A DNA stretch of 64,000 bases. It comes from Liolophura sinensis. Its lineage: Eukaryota; Mollusca; Polyplacophora; Chitonida; Chitonidae. The translations under genes and the position numbers were made by a program. Under the pieces are notes generated by a model. That model saw only the letters and a program-made list of their open reading frames with translations, did not search any database and was not told where the DNA came from. Below are positions 23,427 to 46,990 of this stretch, one piece after another; position 1 is the stretch's first letter; each line of letters starts with the position of its first letter. The DNA is taken from NCBI RefSeq assembly GCF_032854445.1, contig NC_088302.1, positions 38,878,191 to 38,942,190 of the forward strand. The letters are read 5' to 3'.

Positions 23427-23439
23427 ATGAAGGGTTGGG
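23427..23439 (+). repeat. Target-site duplication of LINE copy 1, left
   Basis: ATGAAGGGTTGGG, repeated at 28,633-28,645 after the poly(A) tail. The first A is ambiguous because it can belong to the tail. Confidence 0.9.
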
Positions 23440-23471
23440 GGAGAGTGTGCTAGACGCCGAAGTGAACGGAC

Positions 23472-23840
23472 GTGTCGGTTATTTTCTGCTGTTTACATAT
23501 TTGTGCAACAACAACGCTTGTTTTTGAGACTGATTTTTTGTTGATCTGGGAGCCCACAGAGCTTGAGTTTGGCCAGTGGTTACTGTTTGGTGAAGGGCGT
23601 GTGCCCCGTTGGATCAGGTGTGTCCAAGCCCGTGTCGTTTTCGCCTGTAAACAGGCCAAGCAGAACTTTGTCTGTGTCAATCTCTACACGAAGCAGCCCG
23701 GCATTTTCTACGGCTGTCCAGAGGGACTTTATTCTTTTTCTGTCAAGTGTGTTAAATATCAAGACAGAGCTAATAAGTTTTCAGAAGAATTATTTAAAGA
23801 AACACTTCTATCTCCGCGTGTCTACAGTGGCTGGGCATAA
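23472..23840 (+). CDS. ORF1 N-terminal frame of the Tx1-like LINE, copy 1
   Basis: A 122-residue open frame preceding and overlapping the main ORF1 frame. From about residue 28 it reads like real protein (LEFGQWLLFGEG, then VNLYTKQPGIFYG). Between copies, the differences CCC/CCA, CGT/CGC and TCT/TCC are silent here but change amino acids in the overlapping 454-codon frame, which supports this frame as the coding one at the N-terminus. It ends at TAA 23,838-23,840. Skipping one base there would continue directly into the main ORF1 frame. Two separate proteins, or an upstream ORF, are alternatives. Start codon uncertain. Confidence 0.6.
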   Translation: MSVIFCCLHICATTTLVFETDFLLIWEPTELEFGQWLLFGEGRVPRWIRCVQARVVFACKQAKQNFVCVNLYTKQPGIFYGCPEGLYSFSVKCVKYQDRANKFSEELFKETLLSPRVYSGWA

Positions 23841-24927
23841 TGCCCTAGTGAGTAAATCCAATGTTGTTATAAATGGAACGACGTGGTCCATTATGCCCGC
23901 GTCGTCAGTTTACCTGAATCTGACGGCCCACTGGGCACCGGATGAAATGTCAGATGACACTATCGAGGCAGCTTTGAAACCCTATGGTGAATGCCTGGGT
24001 GTGACGAAACCCAGATTTTCAGACCCGGAGCTCTCACATGTTCGTACAGGTATTCGGATTTACAGATTTAGGTGTCACAAAGTTCGTTATGTACCAAATT
24101 TTATTAATTTCGGTGGTGACATTGTTATGTTTACCTACCCCGGGCAAACTTATGAATGTCGGAAGTGTGGCCAAAAATCACACAAGGCGGCAGAGTGTAG
24201 AGCACTGTGGTGTTCTAACTGCGACGGTTTCTCCCCCCATGAGAATCCTCATACAGAGAAGGACTGTACAAATCCATGCCGAATGTGTGACTCAGGGCTT
24301 CATACGGTCAGTGACTGTTGTGCGAGAGCAATGTCGTACGCGGCGCGAGTTAAAGGAAACCTACCGACTATGCGCCAGTATAATAAGGAACACGCCGTAA
24401 AACAAGATGACATTGATGTTGACGTCAGCGACGATGATGACCCATTCAACGCACCTGCTATGGAACTGGTTCAAGACAGCGAGGAGAACGAAGACGAAAT
24501 CGACGAGAATGGTGACGACAGCGCCGATGAAGACGTCAGCGACGACAGCGAGTCTGATAAGGAGATGGACGTCCGGGAGAATACTAAGAACACCGAAGAA
24601 GTGGATGTTGGTGATAATGAAACGTCATCAGCTGTCCCAAGGGTGAAGAATGTGGTCGTGGCTGACGTGCACGCTCCCGACGTGCGTTCACCAGTCCCAG
24701 TCGAGGAAAAGCGAGCTAAGTTGGACAATGGCAGTACAGCCGAAGAGGCAGCGTCATCTATCCCGCCCAGTTCCCATCCTACTGATTATGATGGTGTTGA
24801 TGCTGATCAGTCGTCAGACTGTATGACGCCGACCCCATCTCAGGAGGGGGACACCATGCTTCTGGAATACAGGAAAAGAAAATCGCTTGCTTCTCGTGCG
24901 AGGCAGCCAATGAAAAGAGACAAATGA
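23563..24927 (+). CDS. ORF1 (nucleic-acid-binding, CCHC) of the Tx1-like LINE, copy 1
   Basis: 454 codons as an open frame; the biologically used part is probably from about residue 90 onward, since the first 90 residues look like an out-of-frame reading. Residues 100-198 form a conserved domain like that of Tx1-clade ORF1 proteins, ending in TYPGQTYEC. CCHC knuckles follow at C199-C202-H207-C212 and C239-C242-H247-C252, with a variant cysteine/histidine cluster between them (C217, C220, H226, C235). Residues 282-335 are strongly acidic. The C-terminus (436-454) is basic and resembles a nuclear localisation signal. Expected role: binding the element's RNA in the retrotransposition particle. 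The gap to ORF2 is 73 bp. Confidence 0.82.
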   Translation: MSLASGYCLVKGVCPVGSGVSKPVSFSPVNRPSRTLSVSISTRSSPAFSTAVQRDFILFLSSVLNIKTELISFQKNYLKKHFYLRVSTVAGHNALVSKSNVVINGTTWSIMPASSVYLNLTAHWAPDEMSDDTIEAALKPYGECLGVTKPRFSDPELSHVRTGIRIYRFRCHKVRYVPNFINFGGDIVMFTYPGQTYECRKCGQKSHKAAECRALWCSNCDGFSPHENPHTEKDCTNPCRMCDSGLHTVSDCCARAMSYAARVKGNLPTMRQYNKEHAVKQDDIDVDVSDDDDPFNAPAMELVQDSEENEDEIDENGDDSADEDVSDDSESDKEMDVRENTKNTEEVDVGDNETSSAVPRVKNVVVADVHAPDVRSPVPVEEKRAKLDNGSTAEEAASSIPPSSHPTDYDGVDADQSSDCMTPTPSQEGDTMLLEYRKRKSLASRARQPMKRDK

Positions 24928-25000
24928 TTTGTAGCGTAATTAGGACTCTCTTATTTGACCACAATGGGTATGTACGCTCTACCTTTACTTACTTTGTATA

Positions 25001-28000
25001 ATGAGCTTAAATAATATTCGTTTTGGGACTTTAAACATTAATGGTTTACGGGATCCGTCTAAACAAGAACATGTCAAGCAATTTGTTTTCGATAAAGGAA
25101 TTGATGTACTATTCTTACAGGAAACACACTTCGAAAACTATAATGACACTAAATATTTGCAAATCCCAGGCGATGCAAGGTGGGCGTATGGGTCAAATCG
25201 AAGTTGTGGGGTGGGAATAATTATTAGGTATACGGTAGACTGCTTTATACGGAAAATACAGAGGTGCCCTAACGGTCGCTACATAAGCCTTAGGGTTGAG
25301 CTCAACAACACTGCTTTAAACCTTGTTTGTGTATATGCCCCTAATAATCCAAAGGAAAGAAAAGAGTTTATTTCTAATCTAGATAATGTGATGCTGGGCA
25401 GTGAGTTGGTTATTATGGGTGGGGATTTTAATTGTGTTGAGAGCATTGAATTAGATAGAGCTGGCTGTGCCACTAATGTAAGGAATGATGGAGTGGACGA
25501 AATTAATAATTTGAAAAGAGATTTTGGTATTTGTGATATTTTTAGGAAACTGCATCCGGATAAGAATTGTTACACGTGGTCTAGGCGCCAGTGTGCCAGT
25601 AGATTGGATAGATTTTATATCCCTAACGCTGTGTTTAAGTATGTAACCCAGTGTGATGCTGTACATGTGTCTTTTTCTGATCATTCGTGTTTGTTTTTTG
25701 ATATCTCTTTTGAAGATGTCATTTCATGGGGGCCGTTCTACTGGAAGTGTAATACTTCTGTGTTAAATGACACGGAGCTTGTTGATGATATTAAATCCGT
25801 CTTCCATGATATTTTCTCTGTCTGTACAACTGGTCATGCAGATCTAATAGACAGATGGGAGACATTTAAAGGGGAATGTAAAGATAGGATTCGTAGTTAC
25901 TGTAAGGAAAAATCTATGAACAAAAAACGTGATTTGTTGGTACTTGAACAAGAATTAAATGCGTTGAAATCTAGTCCAATCATTAACTGTGAGCGTATTG
26001 ACAATGTGAAAAAGACTCTAAATGCCCTTTATAAGTCGAATCATGCGGGAGCGGTTATCCGTGCTAAAGCTGTTCATTTTTATCAGGGAGAAAAACCAAC
26101 CAAATATTTCATTAGACGAGAAGTTGGTAGGGGCAGAAAGAAGATGATCAAAAGTATTACTTGTCATAGTGATTCTTCAATATCCCATGAATCTCAGGAA
26201 GGCATTGCTAAGTGTATAAGGTCGTATTATATGAAATTGTATACTGAACAAGATACTGACTCCTCCATTCAAGATGAGTTCTTGTCATCGCTTCCGATGT
26301 TAAATGACGATTGTAAAACTGCCTGCGAAGGCCTTTTGACTGAACAGGAGTTGTTTTTTGCAGTAAAAAATATGTCTAAAAACCGTTCCCCGGGATGCGA
26401 CGGTTTGCCAGCAGAGTTTTATGTACAATTTTGGCCACTGTTTTCGGGTGTGTTTACGGATGTAGTTAATCACTGTTTTAACTTGGGTAGATTAAGTAAT
26501 TCACAGCGTTCTGGGTTAATCACACTATTATGTAAGGTCCCCGACAATGCCGAAAGCATAAAAAACTGGAGGCCAATTAGCTTACTAAATGTAGATTATA
26601 AGATTGTTTCTAAAGCTTTGTGCAATCGGTTAAAAAATGTGATCGATACAATTGTACTTCAGAATCAGACATGTGGAATACCAGGCCGAAGTATTTTTGA
26701 CAACCTTCACTTATTACGAAATACATATGATTATGTTGAACAAAAAGATTTAAAAGGATGCTTTCTTAACTTAGACCAGGAGAAAGCCTTTGACAGAGTA
26801 GACTGGTCATTTTTGTTCAAATGTTTAGAGAAATTTAACTTCGGACCCGACTTTTGTAAGTGGGTGCAATTATTATATACTGACATTACAAGTAGTGTTA
26901 TTGTGAACGGGCACATAACAGAAGAATTTAAACTGAGTCGAGGTGTCCGACAGGGTTGTTCTTTGTCACCATTATTGTATGTTTTGTCCTTAGAGCCCTT
27001 TATAGCCGCCATTAGAAACAATGACGAAATTAATGGTGTACGGTTACCCGGCACAAATAAGGAAACAAGAGTGTCGGCATTTGCAGATGATACGACTGCA
27101 ATTTTATCTGAAGAGAGTTCTGTTCCGCATGTAATTAAACTAGCAGAAAGTTATGGAAAAGCCTCAGGAGCAAAACTCAACTTGTTGAAAAGCACGGTTC
27201 TTCCCATTGGTAGCTGGGACGAAACTAACGTGCACAGTGGTGGGCTTAACATCACTACAAATTCAAAGATTTGTGGGGTATTTTTTGGACCAGATCAAAC
27301 AGAACTCAATTCTGAGCGTGTTTTAAGTAAGGTAAAGAAACATGTATCAGCATGGAATGGAAGATATTTGACCCTACGGGGGAGGTCTGTCTTAATTAAT
27401 ACAGTTGCTTTAGCTGTTTTATGGTTTTCTGCACAGTGTACTCTGTTGCCACCTAAATGTGTCAATCAATGTTCCCAAACTGTGTTCAGATTTTTGTGGG
27501 ATAACAAGCCCGAAAGTTTGAAGAGAGTTGTCGTACATAATAAAATAGGGAATGGAGGTCTAAACGTACATAATATAGATTGTAAAATAAAAGCACTTGT
27601 TACTCGGCATGTTTTAAAATTAATTCATGGAACAACAGCGGAATGGAAATACTTTGCCATCTATTGGTTGGGTTTACCCCTAAGACATGTTTGTCGTGAA
27701 TTCTGTCGTTCCAATGTCCCACATTCTGAAAACATTCCACCTTTTTATAGACTGGCCTTGAGCGCCTGGAGAGAATTTACCACAGGTGTACAGCAACCTG
27801 TAACATTGTGTTCAAGCAGGTATATTTATGAATATTTTGTAACAAAAATAGTACATTGTCCAAGAGCAATGGTGTCTATGCCGCATTTGGACTGGGTTAG
27901 AATATGGAAAACTGTTTTTCATCAATTCTTAGATCACAACTTGGTCAACTTCAGTTACAAGTTGGTTCATGACATTTTGCCCGTTAAGGAAAAACTTCTT

Positions 28001-28450
28001 AGGAGAAATGTAGCCACCGATGACTTGTGTGTTTTTTGCTCCCTGTCTGAAACTCGGCAACATCTGTTTGTACAATGTAAAATCGTTCAGGATGTGTTTA
28101 ATGACTTTAACCGGATATTTGTTTTGTTTGCGAACTACCTACCAAATATGGACTCGGAAACATTAATTTACAAGGTATTCAATTCCACCTTTAACCAGGA
28201 AGTTAGAGCTGTGATGGTGTATGTCATATGTGTTCTTCAGTTTAGTATTTGGTGTGCACGCAACGACATAATATTTCAGAAAAAAAACAGGGATTCTGTT
28301 GCTATTGTTAAGGCCGCCAAAGGAATAATTAAAACCCGTATTCATGTTGACTTTTTTCGACTAGACAGGCCATCTTTCGAGAAAATCTGGTGTATAAACA
28401 AAGTCTTCTGTACATTACGGAATGATAAATTAGTGTATTTATTGAAATGA
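25001..28450 (+). CDS. ORF2 (EEP endonuclease + reverse transcriptase) of the Tx1-like LINE, copy 1
   Basis: 1,149 residues, intact. An apurinic-type (EEP) endonuclease occupies about residues 5-235, with N13, E41, GGDFN 140-144 and SDH 226-228. The reverse transcriptase follows: SPGCDG 463-468, NWRPISLLN 522-530, LDQEKAFDRVDW 591-602, GVRQGCSLSPLLY 648-660 and FADD 694-697, the catalytic aspartates. A C-terminal knuckle is C1010-C1013-H1021-C1026. Together these would nick the target and copy the RNA by target-primed reverse transcription. The motif set fits the Tx1/L1 group, in which several families are target specific. The start was chosen at ATG 25,001 because the ATGs just upstream are out of frame in this copy. 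Confidence 0.95.
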   Translation: MSLNNIRFGTLNINGLRDPSKQEHVKQFVFDKGIDVLFLQETHFENYNDTKYLQIPGDARWAYGSNRSCGVGIIIRYTVDCFIRKIQRCPNGRYISLRVELNNTALNLVCVYAPNNPKERKEFISNLDNVMLGSELVIMGGDFNCVESIELDRAGCATNVRNDGVDEINNLKRDFGICDIFRKLHPDKNCYTWSRRQCASRLDRFYIPNAVFKYVTQCDAVHVSFSDHSCLFFDISFEDVISWGPFYWKCNTSVLNDTELVDDIKSVFHDIFSVCTTGHADLIDRWETFKGECKDRIRSYCKEKSMNKKRDLLVLEQELNALKSSPIINCERIDNVKKTLNALYKSNHAGAVIRAKAVHFYQGEKPTKYFIRREVGRGRKKMIKSITCHSDSSISHESQEGIAKCIRSYYMKLYTEQDTDSSIQDEFLSSLPMLNDDCKTACEGLLTEQELFFAVKNMSKNRSPGCDGLPAEFYVQFWPLFSGVFTDVVNHCFNLGRLSNSQRSGLITLLCKVPDNAESIKNWRPISLLNVDYKIVSKALCNRLKNVIDTIVLQNQTCGIPGRSIFDNLHLLRNTYDYVEQKDLKGCFLNLDQEKAFDRVDWSFLFKCLEKFNFGPDFCKWVQLLYTDITSSVIVNGHITEEFKLSRGVRQGCSLSPLLYVLSLEPFIAAIRNNDEINGVRLPGTNKETRVSAFADDTTAILSEESSVPHVIKLAESYGKASGAKLNLLKSTVLPIGSWDETNVHSGGLNITTNSKICGVFFGPDQTELNSERVLSKVKKHVSAWNGRYLTLRGRSVLINTVALAVLWFSAQCTLLPPKCVNQCSQTVFRFLWDNKPESLKRVVVHNKIGNGGLNVHNIDCKIKALVTRHVLKLIHGTTAEWKYFAIYWLGLPLRHVCREFCRSNVPHSENIPPFYRLALSAWREFTTGVQQPVTLCSSRYIYEYFVTKIVHCPRAMVSMPHLDWVRIWKTVFHQFLDHNLVNFSYKLVHDILPVKEKLLRRNVATDDLCVFCSLSETRQHLFVQCKIVQDVFNDFNRIFVLFANYLPNMDSETLIYKVFNSTFNQEVRAVMVYVICVLQFSIWCARNDIIFQKKNRDSVAIVKAAKGIIKTRIHVDFFRLDRPSFEKIWCINKVFCTLRNDKLVYLLK

Positions 28451-28714
28451 GCAGCTAATGTGCAATTGTTCTATTCACAAAGCAGTCATCTTTTCTGTGA
28501 TATTTTATTTTAATTAAGACTGCCTTGTGATTTCAAAAGTTTGTGATAGCCGGGTATTGTGAAATCTTGTGTATTTGATGACAATCTGGGAATAAATTCA
28601 ACAATTTTCAAAAAAAAAAAAAAAAAAAAAAAATGAAGGGTTGGGTGAGTTCAATGCCTGTGAAGAAGGCTGAGGGAAGCCGCTTAACTGATAAGCATAG
28701 AAAAAAAAATGTGA

Positions 28715-28796
28715 CGTCGCCGGAAGGATTCGAACCTACGCGAGAATATCCCAATAGAATTCTAATCCATCACCTTAAACACTCGTCCACGACGAC
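28715..28796 (-). pseudogene. tRNA-Ser(AGA) pseudogene
   Basis: Many substitutions in the anticodon stem, variable arm, D-arm and T-stem; the AGA triplet is still visible but the anticodon stem no longer pairs well. Confidence 0.9.
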
Positions 28797-29252
28797 CCCA
28801 TTTCTTCCATCTTTGTCTTAATGATGGATTTCCAAATGTGTGATCCGTGTGGCCTTGAAAGTTTGTCTCTCTTTACACCTGCAGGAAAGGCAAGACAAGG
28901 AGGCAACTGTGTCCAAACTAAGCTGAAGACTGACATAAATGAATGGTAAAAACAGGCATGTATTAGCAAGAAGTTTGCCAACAGACCCCCATTACAACTT
29001 CCCTTTTGCCAGAGGGACGAATATTATCCTGTGTATTTTAGGGAAAATTAATGGGGTTGTAGAACTGTTTGCTGGTCGAATTCATCGAGGTGTAAAGATG
29101 TCAGAAACTATCCAACTGGTCTATCAACGAATAAGACTAACCAGAAGAAAAGGGAGTAAGTAATAGCGTCTGTGAAGGGAAAACGGATTAGATTCTCCAT
29201 GTGATGAACAACTTAAGCAACTCTTAATGACAAAAGAGCTAGGCAATAAATT

Positions 29253-29306
29253 GGCCGGTTAGCTCAGTCGGCATAGCGGCGTGCTAATAACGCGAATATC
29301 ATGGGT
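29253..29306 (+). pseudogene. tRNA-Ile 5' part (3'-truncated)
   Basis: Follows the tRNA-Ile sequence with three substitutions to about position 53, then jumps to the sequence just beyond the normal 3' end. The T-loop, B box and 3' acceptor strand are missing. Confidence 0.9.
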
Positions 29307-29454
29307 AACGTTTTTAATCACTGGGGGGAAAAGTTTTCTCTGCTTTGGCTGTCCATGAGCACAGCAGCACACCTATGATGAAGGGTTGGGTGATCCCACA
29401 GTCTGTGAAGAAGACTCAGGCAAGCTGCATAAGTGATAACCATAGAAAAAATGA

Positions 29455-29536
29455 TGCCGCCGGTAGGATTCAAACCTACGCGGGAAGATCCCAATGGATT
29501 TCTAATCCATCGCCTTAACGACTCGGCCACGATGAC
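29455..29536 (-). pseudogene. tRNA-Ser(AGA), decayed
   Basis: Changes in the RNA sense: discriminator G to A, acceptor-stem substitutions with one unpaired position, the D-loop GG reading CG, and B box GGTTTGAATCC instead of GGTTCGAATCC. The anticodon region is intact. Probably not functional. Confidence 0.78.
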
Positions 29537-29595
29537 CCCAAGTCCTCCATCTTTGTCTTAATGATGGATTCCCAAATGTGCGATCTGTGTGCCCC

Positions 29596-29936
29596 TGATT
29601 GAGTGAGTGAGTGTTTGGGGTTTAACGTCGTACTCAACAATTTTTCAGTCATATGACGACAAAGGAATCCTTACGGTGCATGTGCGTGTAATGTGATAAG
29701 TCATAGGATAAGTCCTTGTAGCAGGACGGATTTCCATCCGAAGGCAAGTAAGCCGCCCCGCCCGAGCCCTTGTACTGATACGGGTCAACCAGTCGTTGCA
29801 TTATCCATTCTAAACAACAAGCGAGAAAGATACAACATCCTCTTTTAAAGTCTTATTTGTGACTCGATCTAGGATGGATCCTGGATCTACCGGCCCAGAA
29901 GCGGACGCTCTACCAACTGTGCTATGCGGGCCGGTC
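29596..29936 (-). mobile_element. tRNA-headed SINE inserted in the array spacer
   Basis: On the minus strand the tRNA-like head starts near 29,932. It has an A box TAGCACAGTTGG (29,913-29,924) and a B box GATCGAGTC (29,861-29,869). The body contains the stretch around TTGAGTACGACGTTAAA and the tail ends in ACTCA repeats. I recognise the body from memory as part of a SINE group widespread in molluscs, probably the V-SINE-like type. A 7-bp duplication GTGCCCC (29,589-29,595 and 29,937-29,943) probably marks the target site; about ten extra bases follow the right copy. Confidence 0.82.
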
Positions 29937-30703
29937 GTGCCCCACACACCCCTCCCTTAAAAGTTTGTCTCTATTTACACCTGCAGGAAAGGCAAGACAA
30001 AGGGCAACTGTGTCCAAACTCCGGCAAAGACTGACATAAATGAATGGTGGAAACAGGCATGTATTAGGACACAGACCCCCATTACAACTTCCCTTTTGCC
30101 AGAGGGACTAATGTTATCCTCTGTATTTTAGAGTGTTAAGTGTTTTCTTGCGGCCAGCCTGTCGTTTTTGGCTTACAGGTGCATGACTGGTATCAAAATG
30201 CTGGAAATTGTCTAAGCTTTGGGTAGGTATGAGTTTTAATGATACAAGTTTGAAATTCAGGGCGAGAAGACACAAGGAAACAGGTGGTGATGAGGCTTCG
30301 AGTGACGTCAACTTGGCCTTCCTAGGCACCCCTCCCAGCTGCCGGCATAAAAAGGTCCAGATTTTGACGGTCAACCCGTCAAGATTTTTATGGCTTCCTT
30401 CTCACAGGCTGGGCCAGGTAAGCACCAAAGCTTACTGGCCACGGAATGTTTGGGACTGAGCTACAACGCTAAAGGTTAAATTTGTCGCTCATGGAAAATT
30501 AATTGGGTTCTGTAATTGTTTGCTGGTCGACGTCATCAAGGTGTAAAGATGTCAGAAACTGTCCCACTGGTCTATCAACGAATAAGACTAACAAGTAGAA
30601 AAGGGAGTAAGTGATAGCGTCTGTGAAGGGAAAACGGGTTGGATTGTCCATGTGATGAACAACTTAAGCAACACTTAATGACAAAAGAGTTAGGCAAGAA
30701 ATT

Positions 30704-30776
30704 GGCCGGTTAGCTCAGTCGGCAGAGCGTCGTGCTAATAACGCGAATGTCATGGGTTCGAGCCCCATTTCGGCAA
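30704..30776 (+). pseudogene. tRNA-Ile(AAT), acceptor-stem damaged
   Basis: Full length, but the 3' acceptor strand reads TTCGGCA, losing pairs 7-66 and 1-72. D-arm, anticodon arm and T-arm are intact. Confidence 0.8.
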
Positions 30777-30838
30777 TTAACGTTTTTTGATCACTGGGGG
30801 GAAAGTTTTCACGACTTATGCTGTCCATGGGCACAGCA

Positions 30839-30852
30839 GCACACCTATGATG
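30839..30852 (+). repeat. Target-site duplication of LINE copy 2, left
   Basis: GCACACCTATGATG, repeated at 36,120-36,133 directly after the poly(A) tail. Confidence 0.93.
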
Positions 30853-30885
30853 GGGAGAGTGTGCTAGACGCCGAAGTGAACGGAC

Positions 30886-32240
30886 GTGTCGGTTATTCTC
30901 TGCTGTTTACACATTTGTGCAACAACAACGCTTGTTTTTGAAACTGATTTTTTGGTGAACTGGGTGCCCACAGAGCTTGAGTTTGGCCAGTGGTTACTGT
31001 TTGGTGAAGGGCGTGTGCCACGTTGGATCAGGTATGTCCAAGCCCGTGTCGTTCTCGCCTGTAAACAGGCCAAGCAGAACTTTGTCTGTGTCAATCTCTA
31101 CACGAAGCAGCCCGGCATTTTCTACGGCTGTCCAGAGGGACTTTATTCCTTTTCTGTCAAGTGTGTTAAATACTAAGACAGAGCTAATAAGTTTTCAGAA
31201 GCATTATTTAAAGAAACACTTCTATCTCCGCGTGTCTACAGTGGCTGGGCATAATGCCCTAGTGAGTAAATCCAATGTTGTTATAAATGGAACGACGTGG
31301 TCTATTATGCCCGCGTCGTCAGTTTACCTGAATCTGACGGCCCACTGGGCACCGGATGAAATGTCAGATGACACTATCGAGGCAGCTTTGAAACCCTATG
31401 GTGAATGCCTGGGTGTGACGAAACCCAGATTTTCAGACCCGGAGCTCTCACATGTTCGGACAGATATTCGGATTTACAGATTTAGGTGTCACAAAGTTCG
31501 TTATGTACCGACTTTTATTAATTTCTGTGGCGATATTGTTATGTTTACCTACCCCGGGCAAACCTATGAATGTCGGAATTGTGGCCAAAAATCACACAAG
31601 GCGGCAGAGTGTAGGGCACTGTGGTGTTCTAACTGCGACGGTTTCTCCCCCCATGAGAATCCTCATACAGAGAAGGACTGTACAGATCTATGCCGAATGT
31701 GTGACTCAGGGCTTCATACGGTCAGTGACTGTTGTGCGAGAGCAATGTCGTACGCGGCGCGAGTTAAGGGAAACCTACCGACTATGCGCCAGTATAATAA
31801 GGAAGACGCCGTTAAACAAGATGACGTTGATGTTGACGTCAGCGATGATGATGACCCATTCAACGCACGTCCGGGAGATGGACGTCCGGGAGAATACTAA
31901 GAACACCGAAGAAGTGGATGTTGGTGATAATGAAACGTCATCAGCTGTCCCGAGGGTGAAGAATGTGGTCGTGGCTGACGTGCACGCTACCGACGTGCGT
32001 TCACCAGTCCCAGTCGAGGAAAAGCGAGCTAAGTTGGACAATGGCAGTACAGCCGAAGAGGCAGCGTCATCTATCCCGCCCAGTTCCCATCCTACTGATT
32101 ATGATGGTGTTGATGCCGATCAGTCGTCAGACTGTATGACGCCGACCCCATCTCAGGAGGGGGACACCATGCTTCTGGAATACAGGAAAAGAAAATCGCT
32201 TGCTTCTCGTGCGAGGCAGCGAATGAAAAGAGACAAATGA
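30886..32240 (+). pseudogene. ORF1 pseudogene of LINE copy 2
   Basis: The N-terminal frame stops early at 31,174-31,176, where copies 1 and 3 have CAA. The main frame (from 30,977) keeps the TYPGQTYEC and CCHC region (here CRNC) but ends at 31,900 because most of the acidic segment has been deleted. The C-terminal part continues in another frame to 32,240. Confidence 0.88.
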
Positions 32241-32312
32241 GTTGTAGCGTAATTAGGATTCTCTTATTTGACCACAGTGGGTATGTACGCTCTACCTTTA
32301 CTTATTTGTATA

Positions 32313-35300
32313 ATGAGCTTAAATAATATTCGTTTTGGGACTTTAAATATTAATGGTTTACGGGATCCATCTAAACAAGAACATGTCAAGCAATTTGTTT
32401 TCGATAAAGGAATTGATGTACTATTCTTACAGGAAACACACTTCGAAAACTATAATGACTAAATATTTGCAAATCCCGGGCGATGCAAGGTGGGCGTATG
32501 GGTCAAATCGAAGTTGTGGGGTGGGAATAATTATTAGGTATACGGTAGACTGCTTTATACGGAAAATACAGAGGTGCCCTAACGGTCGCTACATAAGCCT
32601 TAGGGTTGAGCTCAACAACACTGCTTTAAACCTTGTTTGTGTATATGCCCCTAATAATCCAAAGGAAAGAAAAGAGTTTATTTCTAATCTAGATAATGTG
32701 ATGCAGAGCAGTGAGTTGGTTATTATGGGTGGGGATTTTAATTGTGTCGAGAGCATTGAATTAGATAGAGCTGGCTGTGCCACTAATGGAAGGAATGATG
32801 GAGTGGACGAAATTAATAATTTGAAAAGAGATTTTGGTATTTGTGATATTTTTAGGAAACTGCATCCGAATAAGAATTGTTACACGTGGTCTAGGCGCCA
32901 GTGTGCCAGTAGATTGGATAGATTTTATATCCCTAACGCTGTGTTTAAGTATGTAACCCAGTGTGATGCTGTACATGTGTCTTTTTCTGATCATTCGTGT
33001 TTGTTTTTTGATATTTCTTTTGATTTTTTTTTCTTTTTTTTGATTGGTGTTTTACGCCGTACTCAAGAATATTTCACTTATACGACGGCGGCCAGCATTA
33101 TGGTGGGTGGAAACCGGGCAGAGCCCGGGGGAAGCCCACGACCATCCGCAGGTTGCTGACAGACCTTCTCACGTACGGCCTGAGAGGAGATATTTCTTTT
33201 GAAGATGTCATTTCATTGGGGCCGTTCTACTGGAAGTGTAATACTTCTGTGTTAAATGACACGGAGCTTGTTGATAATATTAAATCCGTCTTCCATGATA
33301 TTTTCTCTGTCTGTACAACTGGTCATGCAGATCTAATAGACAGATGGGAGACATTTAAAAGGGAATGTAAAGACAGAATTCGGAGTTACTGTAAGGAGAA
33401 ATCTATGAATAATAATGAGATTTGTTGTAACTTGAACAAGAATTAAATGCGTTAAAATCTAGTCCAATCATTAACTGTGAGCGTATTGACAATGTGAAAA
33501 AGACTCTAAATGCCCTTTATAAGTCGAATCATGCGGGAGCGGTTATCCATGCTAAAGTGGTTCATTTTGATCAGGGAGAAAAACCAACCAAATATTTCAT
33601 TAGACGAGAAGTTGGTAGGGGCAGAAAAAAGATGATCAAAAGTATTACTTGTCATAGTGATTCTTCAATATCCCATGAATCTCAGGAAGGTATTGCTAAG
33701 TGTATCAGGTCGTATTATATGAAATTGTATACTGAACAAGATACTGACTCCTCCACTCAAAATGGGTTCTTGTCATGGCTTCCGACGATGTTAAATGACG
33801 ATTGTAAAACTGCCTGCGAAGGCCTTTTGACTGAACAGAAGTTGTTTTTTGCAGTAAAAAGTATGTCTAAAAGCCGTTCGCCGGGATGCGACGGTTTGCC
33901 AGCAGAGTTTTATGTACAATTTTGGCCCCTGTTTTCGGGTGTGTTTACGGATGTAGTTAATTACTGTTTTAACTTGGGTAGATTAAGTAATTCACAGCGT
34001 TCTGGGTTAATCACACTATTATGTAAGGACCCCGACAATGCTGAAAGCATAAAAAACTGGAGGCCAATTAGCTTACTAAATGTAGATTATAAGATTCTAA
34101 GTTTCTAAAGCTTTGTGCAATCGGTTAAAAGATGTGATCGATACAATTGTACTTCAGAATCAGACATGTGGAATACCAGGCCGAAGTATTTTTGACAACC
34201 TTCACTTATTACGAAATACATATGATTTATGTTGAACAAAAAGATTTAAAAGGATGCTTTCTTAACTTAGACCAGGAGAAAGCCTTTGACAGAGTAGACT
34301 GGTCATTTTTGTTCAAATGTTTAGAGAAATTTAACTTCGGACCCGACTTTTGTAAGTGGGTGCAATTATTATATACTGACATTACAAGTAGTGTTATTGT
34401 GAACGGGCACATAACAGAAGAATTTAAACTGAGTCGAGGTGTCCGACAGGGTTGTTCTTTGTCACCATTATTGTATGTTTTGTCCTTAGAGCCCTTTATA
34501 GCCGCCATTAGAAACAATGATGAAATTAATGGTGTACGGTTACCCGGCACAAATAAGGAAACAAGAGTGTCGGCATTTGCAGATGATACGACTGCAATTT
34601 TATCTGAAGAGAGTTCTGTTCCGCATGTAATTAAACTAGCAGAAAGTTATGGAAAAGCCTCAGGAGCAAAACTCAACTTGTTGAAAAGCACGGTTCTTCC
34701 TATTGGTAACTGGGACGAAACTAACGTGCACAGTGGTGGGCTTAACATCACTACAAATTCAAAGATTTGTGGGGTATTTTTTGGACCAGATCAAACAGAA
34801 CTCAATTCTGAGCGTGTTTTAAGTAAGGTAAAGAAACATGTATCAGCATGGAATGGAAGATATTTGACCCTACGGGGGAGGTCTGTCTTAATTAATACAG
34901 TTGCTTTAGCTGTCTTATGGTTTTCTGCACAGTGTACTCTGTTGCCACCTAAATGTGTCAATCAATGTTCCCAAACTGTGTTCAGATTTTTGTGGGATAA
35001 CAAGCCCGAAAGTTTGAAGAGAGTTGTCGTACATAATAAAATAGGAAATGGACGTCTAAACGTACATAATATAGAATGTAAAACAAAAGCACTTGTTACT
35101 CGTCATGTTTTAAAATTAATTCATGGAACAACAGCGGAATGGAAATACTTTGCCATCTATTGGTGGGGTTTACCCTTAAGGCATGTTTGTCGTAAATTCT
35201 GTCGTTCCAATGTTCCACATTCTGAAAACATTCCACCTTTTTATAGACTGGCCTTGAGCGCCTGGAGAGAATTTACCACAGGTGTACAGTAACCTGTAAC

Positions 35301-35947
35301 ATTGTGTTCAAGCAGGTATATTTATGAATATTTTGTAACAAAAATAGTACATTGTCCAAGAGTAATGGTGTCTATACCGCATTTGGACTGGGTTAGAATA
35401 TGGAAAACTGTTTTTCATCAATTCTTAGATCACAATTTGGTCAACTTCACTTACAAGTTGGTTCATGACATTTTGCCCGTTAAGGAAAAACTTCTTAGGA
35501 GAAATGTAGCCACCGATGACTTGTGTGTTTTTTGCTCCCTGTCTGAAACTCGGCAATATCTGTTTGTACAATGTAAAATCGTTCAGGATGTGTTTAATGA
35601 CTTTAAAGGGGATATTTGTTTTGTTTGCGAACTACCTACCAAATATGGACTCGGAAACATTAATTTACAAGGTATTCAATTCCACCTTTAACCAAGAAGT
35701 TAGAGCGGTGATGGTGTATGTCATATGTGTTCTTCAGTTTAGTATTTGGTGCGCACGCAACGACATAATATTTCAGAAAAAGAGCAGGGATGCTGTTGCT
35801 ATTGTTAAGGCTGCCAAAGGAATAATTAAAACCCGTATTCATGTTGACTTTTTTCGACTAGACAGGCCATCTTTCGAGAACATCTGGTGTATAAACAAAG
35901 TCTTCTGTACATTACGGAATGATAAATTAGTGTATTTATTGAAATGA
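32313..35947 (+). pseudogene. ORF2 pseudogene of LINE copy 2
   Basis: Starts at the same ATG as the intact copies. A 2-bp deletion near 32,458 shifts the frame early in the endonuclease. A SINE interrupts it at 33,024-33,188. Further frameshifts lie near 33,420, 34,100, 34,225 and 35,607, and a stop at 35,290. The catalytic FADD and GVRQGCSLSP motifs are still readable in 34,147-35,292. It cannot make a full protein. Confidence 0.92.
33010..33202 (-). mobile_element. 5'-truncated SINE tail nested in LINE copy 2, with target-site duplications
   Basis: The insertion body is 33,024-33,188 and reads on the minus strand, ending in a poly(A)-like tail (a T-rich run at 33,024-33,041 on the plus strand). 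It is flanked by perfect 14-bp duplications GATATTTCTTTTGA at 33,010-33,023 and 33,189-33,202. The tail CTTGAGTACGGCGTAAAAC and the preceding CCCACCATAATGCTGGC are recognised from memory as a repeat very common in bivalve genomes. No tRNA-like head is present, so the copy is truncated. Confidence 0.88.
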
Positions 35948-36216
35948 GCAGCTAATGTGCAATTGTTCTATTCACAAAGCAGTCATCTTTTCTGTGATAT
36001 TTTATTTTAATTAAGACTGCCTTGTGATTTCAAAAGTTTGTGATAGCCGGGGATTGTTAAATCTTGTGTATTTGATGACAATCTGGGAAAAAATTCAACA
36101 ATTTTCAAAAAAAAAAAAAGCACACCTATGATGAAGGGTTGGGTGAGCCCACAGCCTGTGAAGAAGACTGATGCAAGCTGCATAAGTGATAAGCATAGAA
36201 AAAAAGAAAAATGTGA

Positions 36217-36298
36217 CGTCGCCGGTAGGATTCGAACCTACGCGGGAAGATCCCAATGGATTTCTAATCCATCGCCTTAACCACTCGGCCACGACGAC
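36217..36298 (-). tRNA. tRNA-Ser(AGA)
   Basis: Identical to the reference tRNA-Ser copy, only about 84 bp after the right target-site duplication of LINE copy 2. Confidence 0.96.
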
Positions 36299-39584: not shown

Positions 39585-39666
39585 CGTCGCCGGTAGGATT
39601 CGAACCTACGCGGGAAGATCCCAATGGATTTCTAATCCATCGCCTTAACCACTCGGCCACGACGAC
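39585..39666 (-). tRNA. tRNA-Ser(AGA)
   Basis: Identical to the reference tRNA-Ser copy. Confidence 0.96.
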
Positions 39667-40556: not shown

Positions 40557-40719
40557 CTATCATTTTTTGATTCATGGGGGGGGGGGGAGTTTTCACTACT
40601 TTGGCTGACCATGGGCACAGCAGCACACCTATGATGAAGGGTTGGGTGAGCCGAATGCCTGTGAAGAACACTGATGCAAGCTGCATAAGTGATAAGCATA
40701 GAAAAAAAGAAAAATGTGA

Positions 40720-40803
40720 CGTCGCCGGTAGGATTCGAACCTACGCGGGAAGAATAAAAAATGGATTTCTAATCCATCGCCTTAACCACTCGGCCACGAC
40801 GAC
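40720..40803 (-). pseudogene. tRNA-Ser(AGA) with destroyed variable arm
   Basis: 84 nt. The variable arm, which should form GGGA/TCCC, reads CATTTTTTATTCTTCCC in the RNA sense and cannot pair. All other arms match the consensus. Because SerRS recognises the variable arm, the RNA is unlikely to be a normal serine acceptor, although transcription signals are intact. The same change is found at 52,663-52,746. Confidence 0.8.
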
Positions 40804-41542
40804 CCCATGGTTTCCATCTTTGTCTTAATGATGGATTCCCAAATGTGCGAGCCTTGTGCCCTTAAAGGTTTGTCTCTATTTACACCTGCAGGAAATGCAA
40901 GACAAGGGGGCAACTGTGTCCAAACTCCGCTAAAGACTGACATAAATGAATGGTGGAAACAGGTATGTATTAGCAAGACGTTTGCACACAAACCCCCATT
41001 ACAACTTCCCTTTTGCCAGAGGGACGAATGTTATCCTCTGTATTTTAGAGTGTTAAGTGTTTTTCTGCGGCCAGCCTGTCGTACAAGTTTGAAATTCAGG
41101 GCGAGAAGACACAAGGAAACAGGTGGTGATGAGGCTTTGAGTGACGTCAACTTGGCCTTCCTAGGTACCCCTCCCAGCTGCCGGTATACAAAGGTCCAGA
41201 TTTTGACGGTCAACCCGTCAAGATTTTTATGGCTTCCTTCTCACAGGCTGGGCCAGGTAAGCACCAAAGCTTACTGGCCACGGAATGTTTGGGACTGAGC
41301 TACAACGCTAAAGGTTAAATTTGTCGCTCATGGAAAATTAAATGGGTTCTGTAATTGTTTGCTGGTCGACGTCATCAAGGTGTAAAGATGTCAGAAACTG
41401 TCCCACTGGTCTATCAACGAATAAGACTAGCAAATAGAAAAGGGAGTAGGTGATAGCGTCTGTGAAGGGAAAACGGGTTGGATTGTCCATGTGATGAACA
41501 ACTTAAGCAACTCTTATTGAAAAAAGAGTGAGGCAAGAAATT

Positions 41543-41615
41543 GGCCGGTTAGCTCAGTCGGCAGAGCGTCGTGCTAATAACGCGAATGTCATGGGTTCGA
41601 GCCCCATATCGGCCA
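41543..41615 (+). tRNA. tRNA-Ile(AAT)
   Basis: Identical to the reference; 73 bp upstream of LINE copy 3. Confidence 0.96.
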
Positions 41616-41677
41616 TTATCGTTTTTTGATCACTGGGGGAAAAAAAGTTTTCACTACTTTGGCTGTCCATGGGCACA

Positions 41678-41688
41678 GCAGCACACCT
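41678..41688 (+). repeat. Target-site duplication of LINE copy 3, left
   Basis: GCAGCACACCT, repeated at 46,891-46,901 after the poly(A) tail. Confidence 0.92.
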
Positions 41689-41721
41689 GGAGGAGTGTGC
41701 TAGACGCCGAAGTGAACGGAC

Positions 41722-42090
41722 GTGTCGGTTATTCTCTGCTGTTTACACATTTGTGCAACAACAACGCTTGTTTTTGAGACTGATTTTTTGGTGATCTGGG
41801 AGCCCACAGAGCTTGAGTTTGGCCAGTGGTTACTGTTTGGTGAAGGGCGTGTGCCCCGCTGGATCAGGTATGTCCAAGCCCGTGTCGTTTTCGCCTGTAA
41901 ACAGGCCAAGCAGAACTTTGTCTGTGTCAATCTCTACACGAAGCAGCCCGGCATTTTCTACGGCTGTCCAGAGGGACTTTATTCCTTTTCTGTCAAGTGT
42001 GTTAAATATCAAGACAGAGCTAATAAGTTTTCAGAAGAATTATTTAAAGAAACACTTCTATCTCCGCGTGTCTACAGTGGCTGGGCATAA
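41722..42090 (+). CDS. ORF1 N-terminal frame of the Tx1-like LINE, copy 3
   Basis: Same 122-codon frame as in copy 1, ending at the same TAA one base out of register with the main ORF1 frame. Presence of an identical arrangement in both intact copies argues that the frame offset is a property of the family, not a recent mutation. Confidence 0.6.
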   Translation: MSVILCCLHICATTTLVFETDFLVIWEPTELEFGQWLLFGEGRVPRWIRYVQARVVFACKQAKQNFVCVNLYTKQPGIFYGCPEGLYSFSVKCVKYQDRANKFSEELFKETLLSPRVYSGWA

Positions 42091-43177
42091 TGCCCTAGTG
42101 AGTAAATCCAATGTTGTTATAAATGGAACGACGTGGTCCATTATGCCCGCGTCGTCAGTTTACCTGAATCTGACGGCCCACTGGGCACCGGATGAAATGT
42201 CAGATGACACTATCGAGGCAGCTTTGAAACCCTATGGTGAATGCCTGGGTGTGACGAAACCCAGATTTTCAGACCCGGAGCTCTCACATGTTCGGACAGG
42301 TATTCGGATTTACAGATTTAGGTGTCACAAAGTTCGTTATGTACCAAATTTTATTAATTTCGGTGGTGACATTGTTATGTTTACCTACCCCGGGCAAACT
42401 TATGAATGTCGGAAGTGTGGCCAAAAATCACACAAGGCGGCAGAGTGTAGAGCACTGTGGTGTTCTAACTGCGACGGTTTCTCCCCCCATGAGAATCCTC
42501 ATACAGAGAAGGACTGTACAAATCCATGCCGAATGTGTGACTCAGGGCTTCATACGGTCAGTGACTGTTGTGCGAGAGCAATGTCGTACGCGGCGCGAGT
42601 TAAGGGAAACCTACCGACTATGCGCCAGTACAATAAGGAAGACGCCTTAAAACAAGATGACATTGATGTTGACGTCAGCGACGATGAAGACCCATTCAAC
42701 GCACCTGCTATGGAACTGGTTCAAGACAGCGAGGAGAACGAAGACGAAATCGACGGGAATGGTGACGACAGCGCCGATGAAGACGTCAGCGACGACAGCG
42801 AGTCTGATAAGGAGATGGACGTCCGGGAGAATACTAAGAACACCGAAGAAGTGGATGTTGGTGATAATGAAACGTCATCAGCTGTCCCAAGGGTGAAGAA
42901 TGTGGTCGTGGCTGACGTGCACGCTCCCGACGTGCGTTCACCAGTCCCAGTCGAGGAAAAGCGAGCTAAGTTGGACAATGGCAGTACAGCCGAAGAGGCA
43001 GCGTCATCTATCCCGCCCAGTTCTCATCCTACTGATTATGATGGTGTTGATGATGATCAGTCGTCAGACTGTATGACGCCGACCCCATCTCAGGAGGGGG
43101 ACACCATGCTTCTGGAATACAGGAAAAGAAAATCGCTTGCTTCTCGTGCGAGGCAGCGAATGAAAAGAGACAAATGA
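41813..43177 (+). CDS. ORF1 (CCHC) of the Tx1-like LINE, copy 3
   Basis: 454 codons, nearly identical to copy 1. It has the same YPGQTYEC/CCHC region, an acidic segment and a basic tail. It differs from copy 1 by a handful of residues, several in the acidic segment. As in copy 1, the first 90 or so codons overlap the N-terminal frame and are probably not the coding register. Confidence 0.82.
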   Translation: MSLASGYCLVKGVCPAGSGMSKPVSFSPVNRPSRTLSVSISTRSSPAFSTAVQRDFIPFLSSVLNIKTELISFQKNYLKKHFYLRVSTVAGHNALVSKSNVVINGTTWSIMPASSVYLNLTAHWAPDEMSDDTIEAALKPYGECLGVTKPRFSDPELSHVRTGIRIYRFRCHKVRYVPNFINFGGDIVMFTYPGQTYECRKCGQKSHKAAECRALWCSNCDGFSPHENPHTEKDCTNPCRMCDSGLHTVSDCCARAMSYAARVKGNLPTMRQYNKEDALKQDDIDVDVSDDEDPFNAPAMELVQDSEENEDEIDGNGDDSADEDVSDDSESDKEMDVRENTKNTEEVDVGDNETSSAVPRVKNVVVADVHAPDVRSPVPVEEKRAKLDNGSTAEEAASSIPPSSHPTDYDGVDDDQSSDCMTPTPSQEGDTMLLEYRKRKSLASRARQRMKRDK

Positions 43178-43249
43178 TTTGTAGCGTAATTAGGACTCTC
43201 TTATTTGACCACAATGGGTATGTACGCTCTACCTTTACTTACTTGTATA

Positions 43250-46200
43250 ATGAGCTTAAATAATATTCGTTTTGGGACTTTAAACATTAATGGTTTACGG
43301 GATCCGTCTAAACAAGAACATGTCAAGCAATTTGTTTTCGATAAAGGAATTGATGTACTATTCTTACAGGAAACACACTTCGAAAACTATAATGACACTA
43401 AAAATTTGCAAATCCCGGGCGATGCAAGGTGGGCGTATGGGTCAAATCGAAGTTGTGGGGTGGGAATAATTATTAGGTATACGGTAGACTGCTTTATACG
43501 GAAAATACAGAGGTGCCCTAACGGTCGCTACATAAGCCTTAGGGTTGAGCTCAACAACACTGCTTTAAACCTTGTTTGTGTATATGCCCCCAATAATCCA
43601 AAGGAAAGAAAAGAGTTTATTTCTAATTTAGATAATGTGATGCAGGGCAGTGAGTTGGTTATTATGGGTGGGGATTTTAATTGTGTTGAGAGCATTGAAT
43701 TAGATAGAGCTGGCTGTGCCACTAATGGAAGGAATGATGGAGTGGACGAAATTAATAATTTGAAAAGAGATTTTGGTATTTGTGATATTTTTAGGAAACT
43801 GCATCCGGATAAGAATTGTTACACGTGGTCTAGGCGCCAGTGTGCCAGTAGATTGGATAGATTTTATATCCCTAACGCTGTGTTTAAGTATGTAACCCAG
43901 TGTGATGCTGTACATGTGTCTTTTTCTGATCATTCGTGTTTGTTTTTTGATATCTCTTTTGAAGATGTCATTTCATGGGGGCCGTTCTACTGGAAGTGTA
44001 ATACTTCTGTGTTAAATGACACGGAGCTTGTTGATGATATTAAATCCGTCTTCCATGATATTTTCTCTGTCTGTACAACTGGTCATGCAGATCTAATAGA
44101 CAGATGGGAGACATTTAAAAGGGAATGTAAAGATAGGATTCGGAGTTACTGTAAGGAAAAATCTATGAACAAAAAACGTGATTTGTTGGTACTTGAACAA
44201 GAATTAAATGCGTTGAAATCTAGTCCAATCATTAACTGTGAGCGTATTGACAATGTGAAAAAGACTCTAAATGCCCTTTATAAGTTGAATCATGCGGGAG
44301 CGGTTATCCGTGCTAAAGCTGTTCATTTTTATCAGGGAGAAAAACCAACCAAATATTTCATTAGACGAGAAGTTGGTAGGGGCAGAAAGAAGATGATCAA
44401 AAGTATTACTTGTCATAGTGATTCTTCAATATCCCATGAATCTCAGGAAGGCATTGCTAAGTGTATAAGGTCGTATTATATGAAATTGTATACTGAACAA
44501 GATACTGACTCCTCCATTCAAGATGAGTTCTTGTCATCGCTTCCGATGTTAAATGACGATTGTAAAACTGCCTGCGAAGGCCTTTTGACTGAACAGGAGT
44601 TGTTTTTTGCAGTAAAAAATATGTCTAAAAACCGTTCGCCGGGATGCGACGGTTTGCCAGCAGAGTTTTATGTACAATTTTGGCCACTGTTTTCGGGTGT
44701 GTTTACGGATGTAGTTAATCACTGTTTTAACTTGGGTAGATTAAGTAATTCACAGCGTTCTGGGTTAATCACACTATTATGTAAGGACCCCGACAATGCC
44801 GAAAGCATAAAAAACTGGAGGCCAATTAGCTTACTAAATGTAGATTATAAGATTGTTTCTAAAGCTTTGTGCAATCGGTTAAAAAATGTGATCGATACAA
44901 TTGTACTTCAGAATCAGACATGTGGAATACCAGGCCGAAGTATTTTTGACAACCTTCATTTATTACGAAATACATATGATTATGTTGAACAAAAAGATTT
45001 AAAAGGATGCTTTCTTAACTTAGACCAGGAGAAAGCCTTTGACAGAGTAGACTGGTCATTTTTGTTCAAATGTTTAGAGAAATTTAACTTCGGACCCGAC
45101 TTTTGTAAGTGGGTGCAATTATTATATACTGACATTACAAGTAGTGTTATTGTGAACGGGCACATAACAGAAGAATTTAAACTGAGTCGAGGTGTCCGAC
45201 AGGGTTGTTCTTTGTCACCATTATTGTATGTTTTGTCCTTAGAGCCCTTTATAGCCGCCATTAGAAACAATAACGAAATTAATGGTGTACGGTTACCCGG
45301 CACAAATAAGGAAACAAGAGTGTCGGCATTTGCAGATGATACGACTGCAATTTTATCTGAAGAGAGTTCTGTTCCGCATGTAATTAAACTAGCAGAAAGT
45401 TATGGAAAAGCCTCAGGAGCAAAACTCAACTTGTTGAAAAGCACGGTTCTTCCCATTGGTAACTGGGACGAAACTAACGTGCACAGTGGTGGGCTTAACA
45501 TCACTACAAATTCAAAGATTTGTGGGGTATTTTTTGGACCAGATCAAACAGAACTCAATTCTGAGCGTGTTTTAAGTAAGGTAAAGAAACATGTATCAGC
45601 ATGGAATGAAAGATATTTGACCCTACGGGGGAGGTCTGTCTTAATTAATACAGTTGCTTTAGCTGTTTTATGGTTTTCTGCACAGTGTACTCTGTTGCCA
45701 CCTAAATGTGTCAATCAGTGTTCCCAAACTGTGTTCAGATTTTTGTGGGATAACAAGCCCGAAAGTTTGAAGAGAGTTGTCGTACATAATAAAATAGGGA
45801 ATGGAGGTCTAAACGTACATAATATAGATTGTAAAATAAAAGCACTTGTTACTCGGCATGTTTTAAAATTAATTCATGGAACAACAGCGGAATGGAAATA
45901 CTTTGCCATCTATTGGTTGGGTTTACCCCTAAGACATGTTTGTCGTGAATTCTGTCGTTCCAATGTCCCACATTCTGAAAACATTCCACCTTTTTATAGA
46001 CTGGCCTTGAGCGCCTGGAGAGAATTTACCACAGGTGTACAGCAACCTGTAACATTGTGTTCAAGCAGGTATATTTATGAATATTTTGTAACAAAAATAG
46101 TACATTGTCCAAGAGCAATGGTGTCTATGCCGCATTTGGACTGGGTTAGAATATGGAAAACTGTTTTTCATCAATTCTTAGATCACAACTTGCTCAACTT

Positions 46201-46699
46201 CAGTTACAAGTTGGTTCATGACATTTTGCCCGTTAAGGAAAAACTTCTTAGGAGAAATGTAGCCACCGATGACTTGTGTGTTTTTTGCTCCCTGTCTGAA
46301 ACTCGGCAACATCTGTTTGTACAATGTAAAATCGTTCAGGATGTGTTTAATGACTTTAACCGGATATTTGTTTTGTTTGCGAACTACCTACCAAATATGG
46401 ACTCGGAAACATTAATTTACAAGGTAATCAATTCCACCTTTAACCAGGAAGTTAGAGCTGTGATGGTGTATGTCATATGTGTTCTTCAGTTTAGTATTTG
46501 GTGTGCACGCAACGACATAATATTTCAGAAAAAAAACAGGGATTCTGTTGCTATTGTTAAGGCCGCCAAAGGAATAATTAAAACCCGTATTCATGCTGAC
46601 TTTTTTCGACTAGACAGGCCATCTTTCGAGAAAATCTGGTGTATAAACAAAGTCTTCTGTACATTACGGAATGATAAATTAGTGTATTTATTGAAATGA
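43250..46699 (+). CDS. ORF2 (EEP endonuclease + reverse transcriptase) of the Tx1-like LINE, copy 3
   Basis: 1,149 residues with all endonuclease, reverse transcriptase and C-terminal CCHC residues seen in copy 1. I can find about 12 amino-acid differences from copy 1, none in a catalytic motif. The start is placed at the ATG equivalent to 25,001; an in-frame ATG 45 bp upstream exists only because of a 1-bp difference in the leader. Likely still competent or very recently active. Confidence 0.95.
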   Translation: MSLNNIRFGTLNINGLRDPSKQEHVKQFVFDKGIDVLFLQETHFENYNDTKNLQIPGDARWAYGSNRSCGVGIIIRYTVDCFIRKIQRCPNGRYISLRVELNNTALNLVCVYAPNNPKERKEFISNLDNVMQGSELVIMGGDFNCVESIELDRAGCATNGRNDGVDEINNLKRDFGICDIFRKLHPDKNCYTWSRRQCASRLDRFYIPNAVFKYVTQCDAVHVSFSDHSCLFFDISFEDVISWGPFYWKCNTSVLNDTELVDDIKSVFHDIFSVCTTGHADLIDRWETFKRECKDRIRSYCKEKSMNKKRDLLVLEQELNALKSSPIINCERIDNVKKTLNALYKLNHAGAVIRAKAVHFYQGEKPTKYFIRREVGRGRKKMIKSITCHSDSSISHESQEGIAKCIRSYYMKLYTEQDTDSSIQDEFLSSLPMLNDDCKTACEGLLTEQELFFAVKNMSKNRSPGCDGLPAEFYVQFWPLFSGVFTDVVNHCFNLGRLSNSQRSGLITLLCKDPDNAESIKNWRPISLLNVDYKIVSKALCNRLKNVIDTIVLQNQTCGIPGRSIFDNLHLLRNTYDYVEQKDLKGCFLNLDQEKAFDRVDWSFLFKCLEKFNFGPDFCKWVQLLYTDITSSVIVNGHITEEFKLSRGVRQGCSLSPLLYVLSLEPFIAAIRNNNEINGVRLPGTNKETRVSAFADDTTAILSEESSVPHVIKLAESYGKASGAKLNLLKSTVLPIGNWDETNVHSGGLNITTNSKICGVFFGPDQTELNSERVLSKVKKHVSAWNERYLTLRGRSVLINTVALAVLWFSAQCTLLPPKCVNQCSQTVFRFLWDNKPESLKRVVVHNKIGNGGLNVHNIDCKIKALVTRHVLKLIHGTTAEWKYFAIYWLGLPLRHVCREFCRSNVPHSENIPPFYRLALSAWREFTTGVQQPVTLCSSRYIYEYFVTKIVHCPRAMVSMPHLDWVRIWKTVFHQFLDHNLLNFSYKLVHDILPVKEKLLRRNVATDDLCVFCSLSETRQHLFVQCKIVQDVFNDFNRIFVLFANYLPNMDSETLIYKVINSTFNQEVRAVMVYVICVLQFSIWCARNDIIFQKKNRDSVAIVKAAKGIIKTRIHADFFRLDRPSFEKIWCINKVFCTLRNDKLVYLLK

Positions 46700-46857
46700 G
46701 CAGCTAATGTGCAACTGTTCTATTCACAAAGCAGTCATCTTTTCTGTGATATTTTATTTTAATTAAGACTGCCTTGTGATTTCAAAAGTATGTAATAGCC
46801 GGGTATTGTGAAATCTTGTGTATTTGATGACAATCTGGAAATAAATTCAACAATTTT

Positions 46858-46891
<34 letters not shown>

Positions 46892-46990
46892 CAGCACACC
46901 TATGATGAAGGGTTGGGTGAGCCCAATGCCTGTGAAGAAGACTGATGCAAGCTGCATAAGTGATAAGCATAGAGAAAAAGAAAAATGTGA

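Follow-up and report, generated by a model that had tools for sequence, protein, structure and literature searches.

A LINE family of the chiton Liolophura sinensis that inserts downstream of Pol III genes

The window analysed here is the whole stretch of 64,000 nucleotides at C8:38878191-38942190 of the 609-Mb genome of the chiton Liolophura sinensis. It contains a tandem tRNA array, in which tRNA-Ile and tRNA-Ser genes converge across a spacer of about 162 bp, and three copies of a LINE all lie in that spacer. ARAGORN called 71 tRNAs in the window, and the features on which the analysis rests are the following.

1..23426, and between and after the insertions to about 57,455: tandem tRNA array of tRNA-Ser(AGA) (minus strand) and tRNA-Ile(AAT) (plus strand), unit about 1,134 bp, from tRNA calls and self-alignment
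23310..23350, plus strand: truncated tRNA-Ile upstream of LINE copy 1, 5' half; the 3' half with the B box is lost
23440..28632, plus strand: LINE copy 1, full length, with poly(A) tail; target-site duplication (TSD) ATGAAGGGTTGGG at 23427-23439 and 28633-28645
23563..24927, plus strand: ORF1 of LINE copy 1, 454 aa
25001..28450, plus strand: ORF2 of LINE copy 1, 1149 aa, with APE endonuclease, RT and zf-RVT
28715-28796 and 36217-36298, minus strand: convergent tRNA-Ser(AGA) genes downstream of LINE copies 1 and 2
30703..30777, plus strand: tRNA-Ile(AAT), 75 bp upstream of LINE copy 2
30853..36119, plus strand: LINE copy 2, frames broken; TSD GCACACCTATGATG at 30839-30852 and 36120-36133
41542..41616, plus strand: tRNA-Ile(AAT), 72 bp upstream of LINE copy 3
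41689..46890, plus strand: LINE copy 3, full length; TSD GCAGCACACCT at 41678-41688 and 46891-46901
41813..43177, plus strand: ORF1 of LINE copy 3, 454 aa, with three zinc knuckles, an acidic region and a basic tail
43205..46699, plus strand: ORF2 of LINE copy 3, 1164 aa, with APE, RT and zf-RVT
46991..47072, minus strand: convergent tRNA-Ser(AGA) downstream of LINE copy 3

Since the tRNA-Ile before LINE copy 1 is only a 5' half, the array unit there is damaged. Both frames are open in two of the three LINE copies; copies 1 and 3 share 99.2% identity, with about 97% between either of them and copy 2. A preliminary description of this DNA had placed three same-strand copies within about 15 bp of one point of the unit, and in unit coordinates their TSDs do start at about 1050, 1039 and 1036 (copies 1, 2 and 3). 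The 13-mer, 14-mer and 11-mer that it gave as duplications are found exactly at all three copies, and the expectation of roughly 2 in 10,000 that it assigned to chance is arithmetically correct ((31/1134 x 0.5)^2 = 1.9e-4). It was also right in treating the insertions as independent: both the TSDs and the poly(A) lengths (24, 13 and 32) differ despite identities of 97-99.2%, so the window's three copies are separate insertions.

That the element is an APE-RT LINE of the L1-like kind, as had been proposed, is borne out by the domains of ORF2 and by RT similarity. Among solved structures, that of human L1 ORF2p comes closest to ORF2 (E 2e-87; R2 scores much worse), and the RT is 37% identical to that of human L1. 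The element carries the features of the L1 group, namely an APE endonuclease, an RT closest to L1, a C-terminal zinc motif, a poly(A) tail and variable TSDs; the tail and the TSDs also give the family's insertions the hallmarks of target-primed reverse transcription. Read by eye from the translation, ORF1 contains the zinc knuckle CX2CX4HX4C twice and a third related motif; family and structure searches with ORF1 returned zinc knuckles only and nothing further, and its predicted structure, at a pLDDT of 35, is uninformative. CCHC zinc knuckles in ORF1, present here, are a feature of the Tx1 clade, and the three knuckles, the L1-group RT and a related family that ends at (GATA)n together make it plausible, on sequence grounds, that the element is Tx1-like. 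The 5' ends are full length, with leading G's variable in number. To judge from identities of up to 99% and many open frames, the copies are young.

Genome-wide, patterns for the element's ends (up to 3 mismatches) matched 77 3' ends and 45 5' ends, and the reversed control matched none; these copy counts are lower bounds (at least 77 and at least 45). Flanks were read for 59 of the 3' ends (including 2 of the 22 from one tandem block on C1) and for all 45 5' ends. The proposal that the Ser/Ile spacer is the target did not survive this search, as most genomic copies lie elsewhere: the Ser/Ile array holds only the window's three, and nearly all of the rest are in other tRNA arrays, a 5S array and 7SL/SRP arrays. 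Finding most copies at unrelated sites had been named as what would speak against specificity; the copies are indeed elsewhere, but rarely at unrelated sites, being almost always at other Pol III genes and in the same relative position, and the genome-wide junction positions uphold the broader claim of non-random targeting. Insertions are carried by 27 separate arrays, and the flanking tRNA genes represent 20 of 20 isotypes. Assembly artefacts, the other explanation considered for the junctions, are unlikely because the same element ends, each with its own TSDs, recur on many contigs.

Several of the arrays deserve description in their own right. At C6:48638000-48675000, 7SL/SRP RNA genes form a tandem array of at least 25 copies with a unit of about 890 bp. 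It is unusual for this gene to be multiplied in such a way; one LINE of the family sits in the array, and at C6:48.12 Mb two further members follow 7SL genes. The tRNA-Val array at C1:65152155-65201721 has 22 near-identical LINE 3' ends at a spacing of about 2.4 kb, and appears to represent a truncated insertion amplified along with the array. LINEs in Met/Gly tRNA arrays at C7:8835-22747 and C23:1456-6919 have 5' flanks that are 98% alike and run in opposite directions, which suggests a duplication or an unplaced haplotype. With copies duplicated along with arrays in C11 Asn, C7/C23 and C1 Val, insertion events are fewer than copies. The spacers of the Ser/Ile, Ala and Gly/Met arrays share a stretch of about 225 bp or longer at 77-87% identity (3' flanks of L001, L009, L012 and L022), perhaps a mobile or conserved array element.

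The position of the insertions relative to Pol III genes, called by covariance models for tRNA, 5S and SRP together with ARAGORN, follows a simple rule. At 38 of the 45 5' junctions a Pol III gene in the same orientation ends 32-274 bp upstream (median about 100 bp), and 32 of the 45 junctions fall within 160 bp of the upstream gene. After 5S genes the distances are 81 and 131 bp; after 7SL genes, in three cases that first looked like exceptions, they are 38, 51 and 134 bp. LINE copy 1 of the window constitutes a 39th case, about 90 bp after the half-deleted tRNA-Ile. A run of four or more T's precedes the insertion in 38 of 38 cases, which places it outside the transcription unit. Orientation is shared with the nearest gene at 42 of 44 junctions and, counted by array, in 25 of 26 (p=8e-7), and 26 of 30 insertions lie in the half of the spacer nearer the upstream gene (KS p=1.4e-5, a somewhat optimistic value as a few duplicated copies are included). 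The paired counts leave out the 10-kb pairings at C10:31077602 and C11:22238126. Several insertions destroy the body of a tRNA gene at the usual distance from the preceding gene, as in the case of a tRNA-Leu hit 131 bp past a 5S gene, which argues that the deciding factor is distance and not the sequence of the spacer. Six junctions are not readily accommodated: in three the nearest gene on the same strand is 475-674 bp away and in a fourth 1,302 bp, a fifth is rearranged, and the sixth is beside a tRNA-like SINE. At L090:1190-1490, a tRNA-derived SINE-like sequence ends about 75 bp upstream of the one LINE copy that has no nearby Pol III gene, in the same orientation; its tail presumably resembles those of animal MetaSINEs. 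The specificity of the family is thus for a position downstream of Pol III genes and not for a DNA site.

How far this rule departs from chance can be gauged in two ways. A B-box-like pattern has 12,968 matches in the genome against 4,534 for a reversed control, and if the excess of about 8,400 is taken as tRNA-like sequences, roughly 0.2% of random insertions would meet the rule of same strand and at most 275 bp downstream. The second comparison uses one control family, that of an unrelated LINE in the window (59622-62795, minus strand; RT 25% identical): a tRNA occurs in the sampled flank of 1 of 12 control copies, and a tRNA or 5S gene within 950 bp of 46 of 59 3' ends of the family (Fisher p=9e-6). 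The control stands at 1 of 12 and not at 0 on account of an intron-tolerant ARAGORN call near one copy, confirmed by Rfam. The control LINE itself, which lies beside the array, encodes an APE-RT protein of 1057 aa that falls outside the L1 group by RT similarity. Its 3' kilobase has about 25 near-full-length matches in the genome, seven of them about 10-15 kb apart on C7.

U6 genes are transcribed by Pol III from an external promoter. The U6 array at C8:16687180-16752830 (at least 48 near-identical copies, unit about 1.0-1.4 kb) contains no member of the family, although too few would be expected there for this to be telling. A relative with 76% RT identity lies about 2 kb from the edge of that array, in the opposite orientation.

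Related LINE families were compared by their RTs. Relatives at 75-81% and 66-67% identity mostly adjoin the same arrays, as judged by position, with the 80% and 67% subfamilies sampled in a few short stretches; one copy of the 67% relative lies about 95 bp after a tRNA-Leu(CAA) gene and another about 40 bp after a 5S gene, both in the gene's orientation. A relative at about 55% was seen once (L106), with no Pol III gene nearby. In the 46% relative, which has an ORF of 1308 aa, the poly(A) tail is followed by (GATA)n in all five copies (L107-L111, at C2:9948513, C8:47684500, C12:201640, C4:91311 and C1:91042700), and this is probably a microsatellite-targeted LINE; several of its copies stand in rows about 6.1 kb apart. 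A small tree, built without reference elements, places the 81, 67, 54 and 46% relatives near the family, with human L1 and the control at a distance from them. The preference for Pol III genes seems to belong to one branch.

The genes for tRNA, 5S and 7SL RNA all use Pol III, and in other animals they use TFIIIB and TFIIIC as well; their promoter layouts differ. With good confidence, we hypothesize that the element is an L1/Tx1-like LINE of the APE type and that the Pol III apparatus guides its integration complex. Such a LINE, young and autonomous, would insert by target-primed reverse transcription shortly downstream of internal-promoter Pol III genes (tRNA, 5S and 7SL), in the gene's own orientation and past its terminator. 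Its ribonucleoprotein may be brought there by contact with Pol III, with TFIIIB or TFIIIC, or with factors bound at the terminator, or else by chromatin that this apparatus leaves behind. The APE endonuclease would then nick the complement of the coding strand at whatever point it reaches, and a short A/T match to the poly(A) tail would serve for priming.

A variant of this explanation, not exclusive of it, is that recruitment depends on the sequence of the tRNA gene itself, for instance on its B box or an external one, as has been suggested for TRE3 of Dictyostelium, whose insertion is tied to internal and external B boxes (PMC5911963). We consider it rather unlikely here: the 4,115 bp between genes and insertions contain one B-box-like match, with 0.27 expected, and the promoter layouts of 7SL and 5S genes differ, yet insertions at both hold their distance from where the gene ends. 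For 7SL genes, of about 300 nt, that distance is kept in three cases, which hint, if mildly, at recruitment by the termination zone (or the polymerase) over B-box spacing.

It is improbable that the pattern arose from loose insertion into open chromatin, with survival only in redundant Pol III arrays and purging elsewhere. Redundant arrays would make insertions harmless, and a position beyond the terminator in every one of the 38 cases agrees with this; but the copies are young, the control LINE occurs elsewhere, and neither the 32-274 bp range nor the orientation is explained by survival in spacers that are often 400-1,300 bp long.

Classical targeting of the Tx1 type, in which the endonuclease would read a DNA sequence in the spacer, is suggested by the clustering of three insertions in the Ser/Ile array and by the related family whose copies end without exception at (GATA)n, but it is largely refuted and very improbable. 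No shared motif was found in 15 distinct, cleanly delimited TSDs (8-29 bp, median 12) beyond A's at the nick, and A's at the poly(A) junction are expected from priming by poly(A) RNA and are partly an artefact of how the sites were aligned. Target windows of 120 bp fall into 23 similarity groups, mostly of a single array each, with links between arrays made mainly by the tRNA or 7SL sequence itself. Between an absent motif, mostly unrelated spacers and targets that cover all tRNA isotypes, 5S and 7SL, the strict DNA-sequence specificity of the Tx1 target-specific families is not found here. Barely credible is the notion that the array copies were mostly amplified from a few founding insertions, for which three Asn-array copies with identical junctions, the regularly spaced Val-array copies and the C7/C23 mirror copies might be adduced, given the distinctness of the 15 TSDs among paired copies and the number of separate arrays; for the window's three copies it is refuted by their differing TSDs.

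Guidance by the Pol III apparatus has precedents outside animals. The L1-clade element TRE3 of Dictyostelium inserts 40-150 bp downstream of tRNA genes in the same orientation, and has, like the chiton family, two ORFs, an ORF2 with APE, RT and zinc finger, an oligo(A) tail and downstream same-orientation insertion (PMC5911963; PMC5006619). The chiton family differs in its animal host, in having 5S and 7SL targets too, in its residence in tRNA arrays, in a window that reaches about 270 bp, in the zinc knuckles of ORF1, and in that no external B box was found, whereas that of TRE3 lies about 100 bp downstream of the gene. In position and orientation the targeting closely matches that of TRE3, a likeness of behaviour that leaves common descent aside. 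TRE5, also of Dictyostelium, inserts about 50 bp upstream in the opposite orientation, hits 5S genes as well, and has an ORF1 protein that binds TFIIIB (PMC5911963); it too is a LINE targeting Pol III genes, 5S included, but insertion here is downstream and in the same orientation. Skipper-2 of dictyostelids and Ty1/Ty3 of yeast likewise integrate at specific positions beside Pol III genes (PMC5911963), but are LTR elements with an integrase, and the Ty elements insert upstream. According to a 2018 review, downstream insertion had been observed in dictyostelids only (PMC5911963). Outside dictyostelids, the open-access papers searched describe as tRNA-specific LINEs the zebrafish element Dewa and members of the NeSL clade. 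Among NeSL-clade elements, NeSL-1_TV, LIN15_SM and LIN25_SM, planarian ones included, target one tRNA gene each (PMC4640811). Those elements have a restriction-like endonuclease and a single tRNA gene as target, whereas the chiton family has APE, many targets and no fixed site.

The zebrafish LINEs Dewa and Mutsu belong to the Tx1 clade. The target of Dewa is a tRNA-Leu spacer, and that of Mutsu is the 5S genes (PMC3706591, citing Kojima & Fujiwara 2004); each has one described target, whereas here one family occupies all isotypes, 5S and 7SL without a shared sequence. Elements that recognise their target sequence directly have been set apart from those led to it by host proteins (PMC3706591), and we infer that the chiton family is of the second sort. 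No earlier report of such an animal LINE was found in the open-access literature, so its novelty is provisional.

Taking these comparisons together, we lean slightly towards the view that one lineage of animal LINEs has evolved on its own an integration that host proteins guide to the termination side of every internal-promoter Pol III gene, through Pol III or terminator factors and not through DNA sequence or the B box, within a clade that has (GATA)n-targeting relatives; the zebrafish tRNA-spacer and 5S LINEs might then be examples of this mechanism that have gone unrecognised. In yeasts and social amoebae, integration guided to Pol III genes by proteins serves as a model of transposon-host coexistence. 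An animal LINE found at tRNA, 5S and 7SL genes alike would make the targeting mechanism testable in animal cells, and it indicates that target choice can shift inside one LINE clade, with Pol III genes in one branch and a microsatellite in another. For safe gene insertion, too, a LINE whose landing sites are harmless may be of interest.
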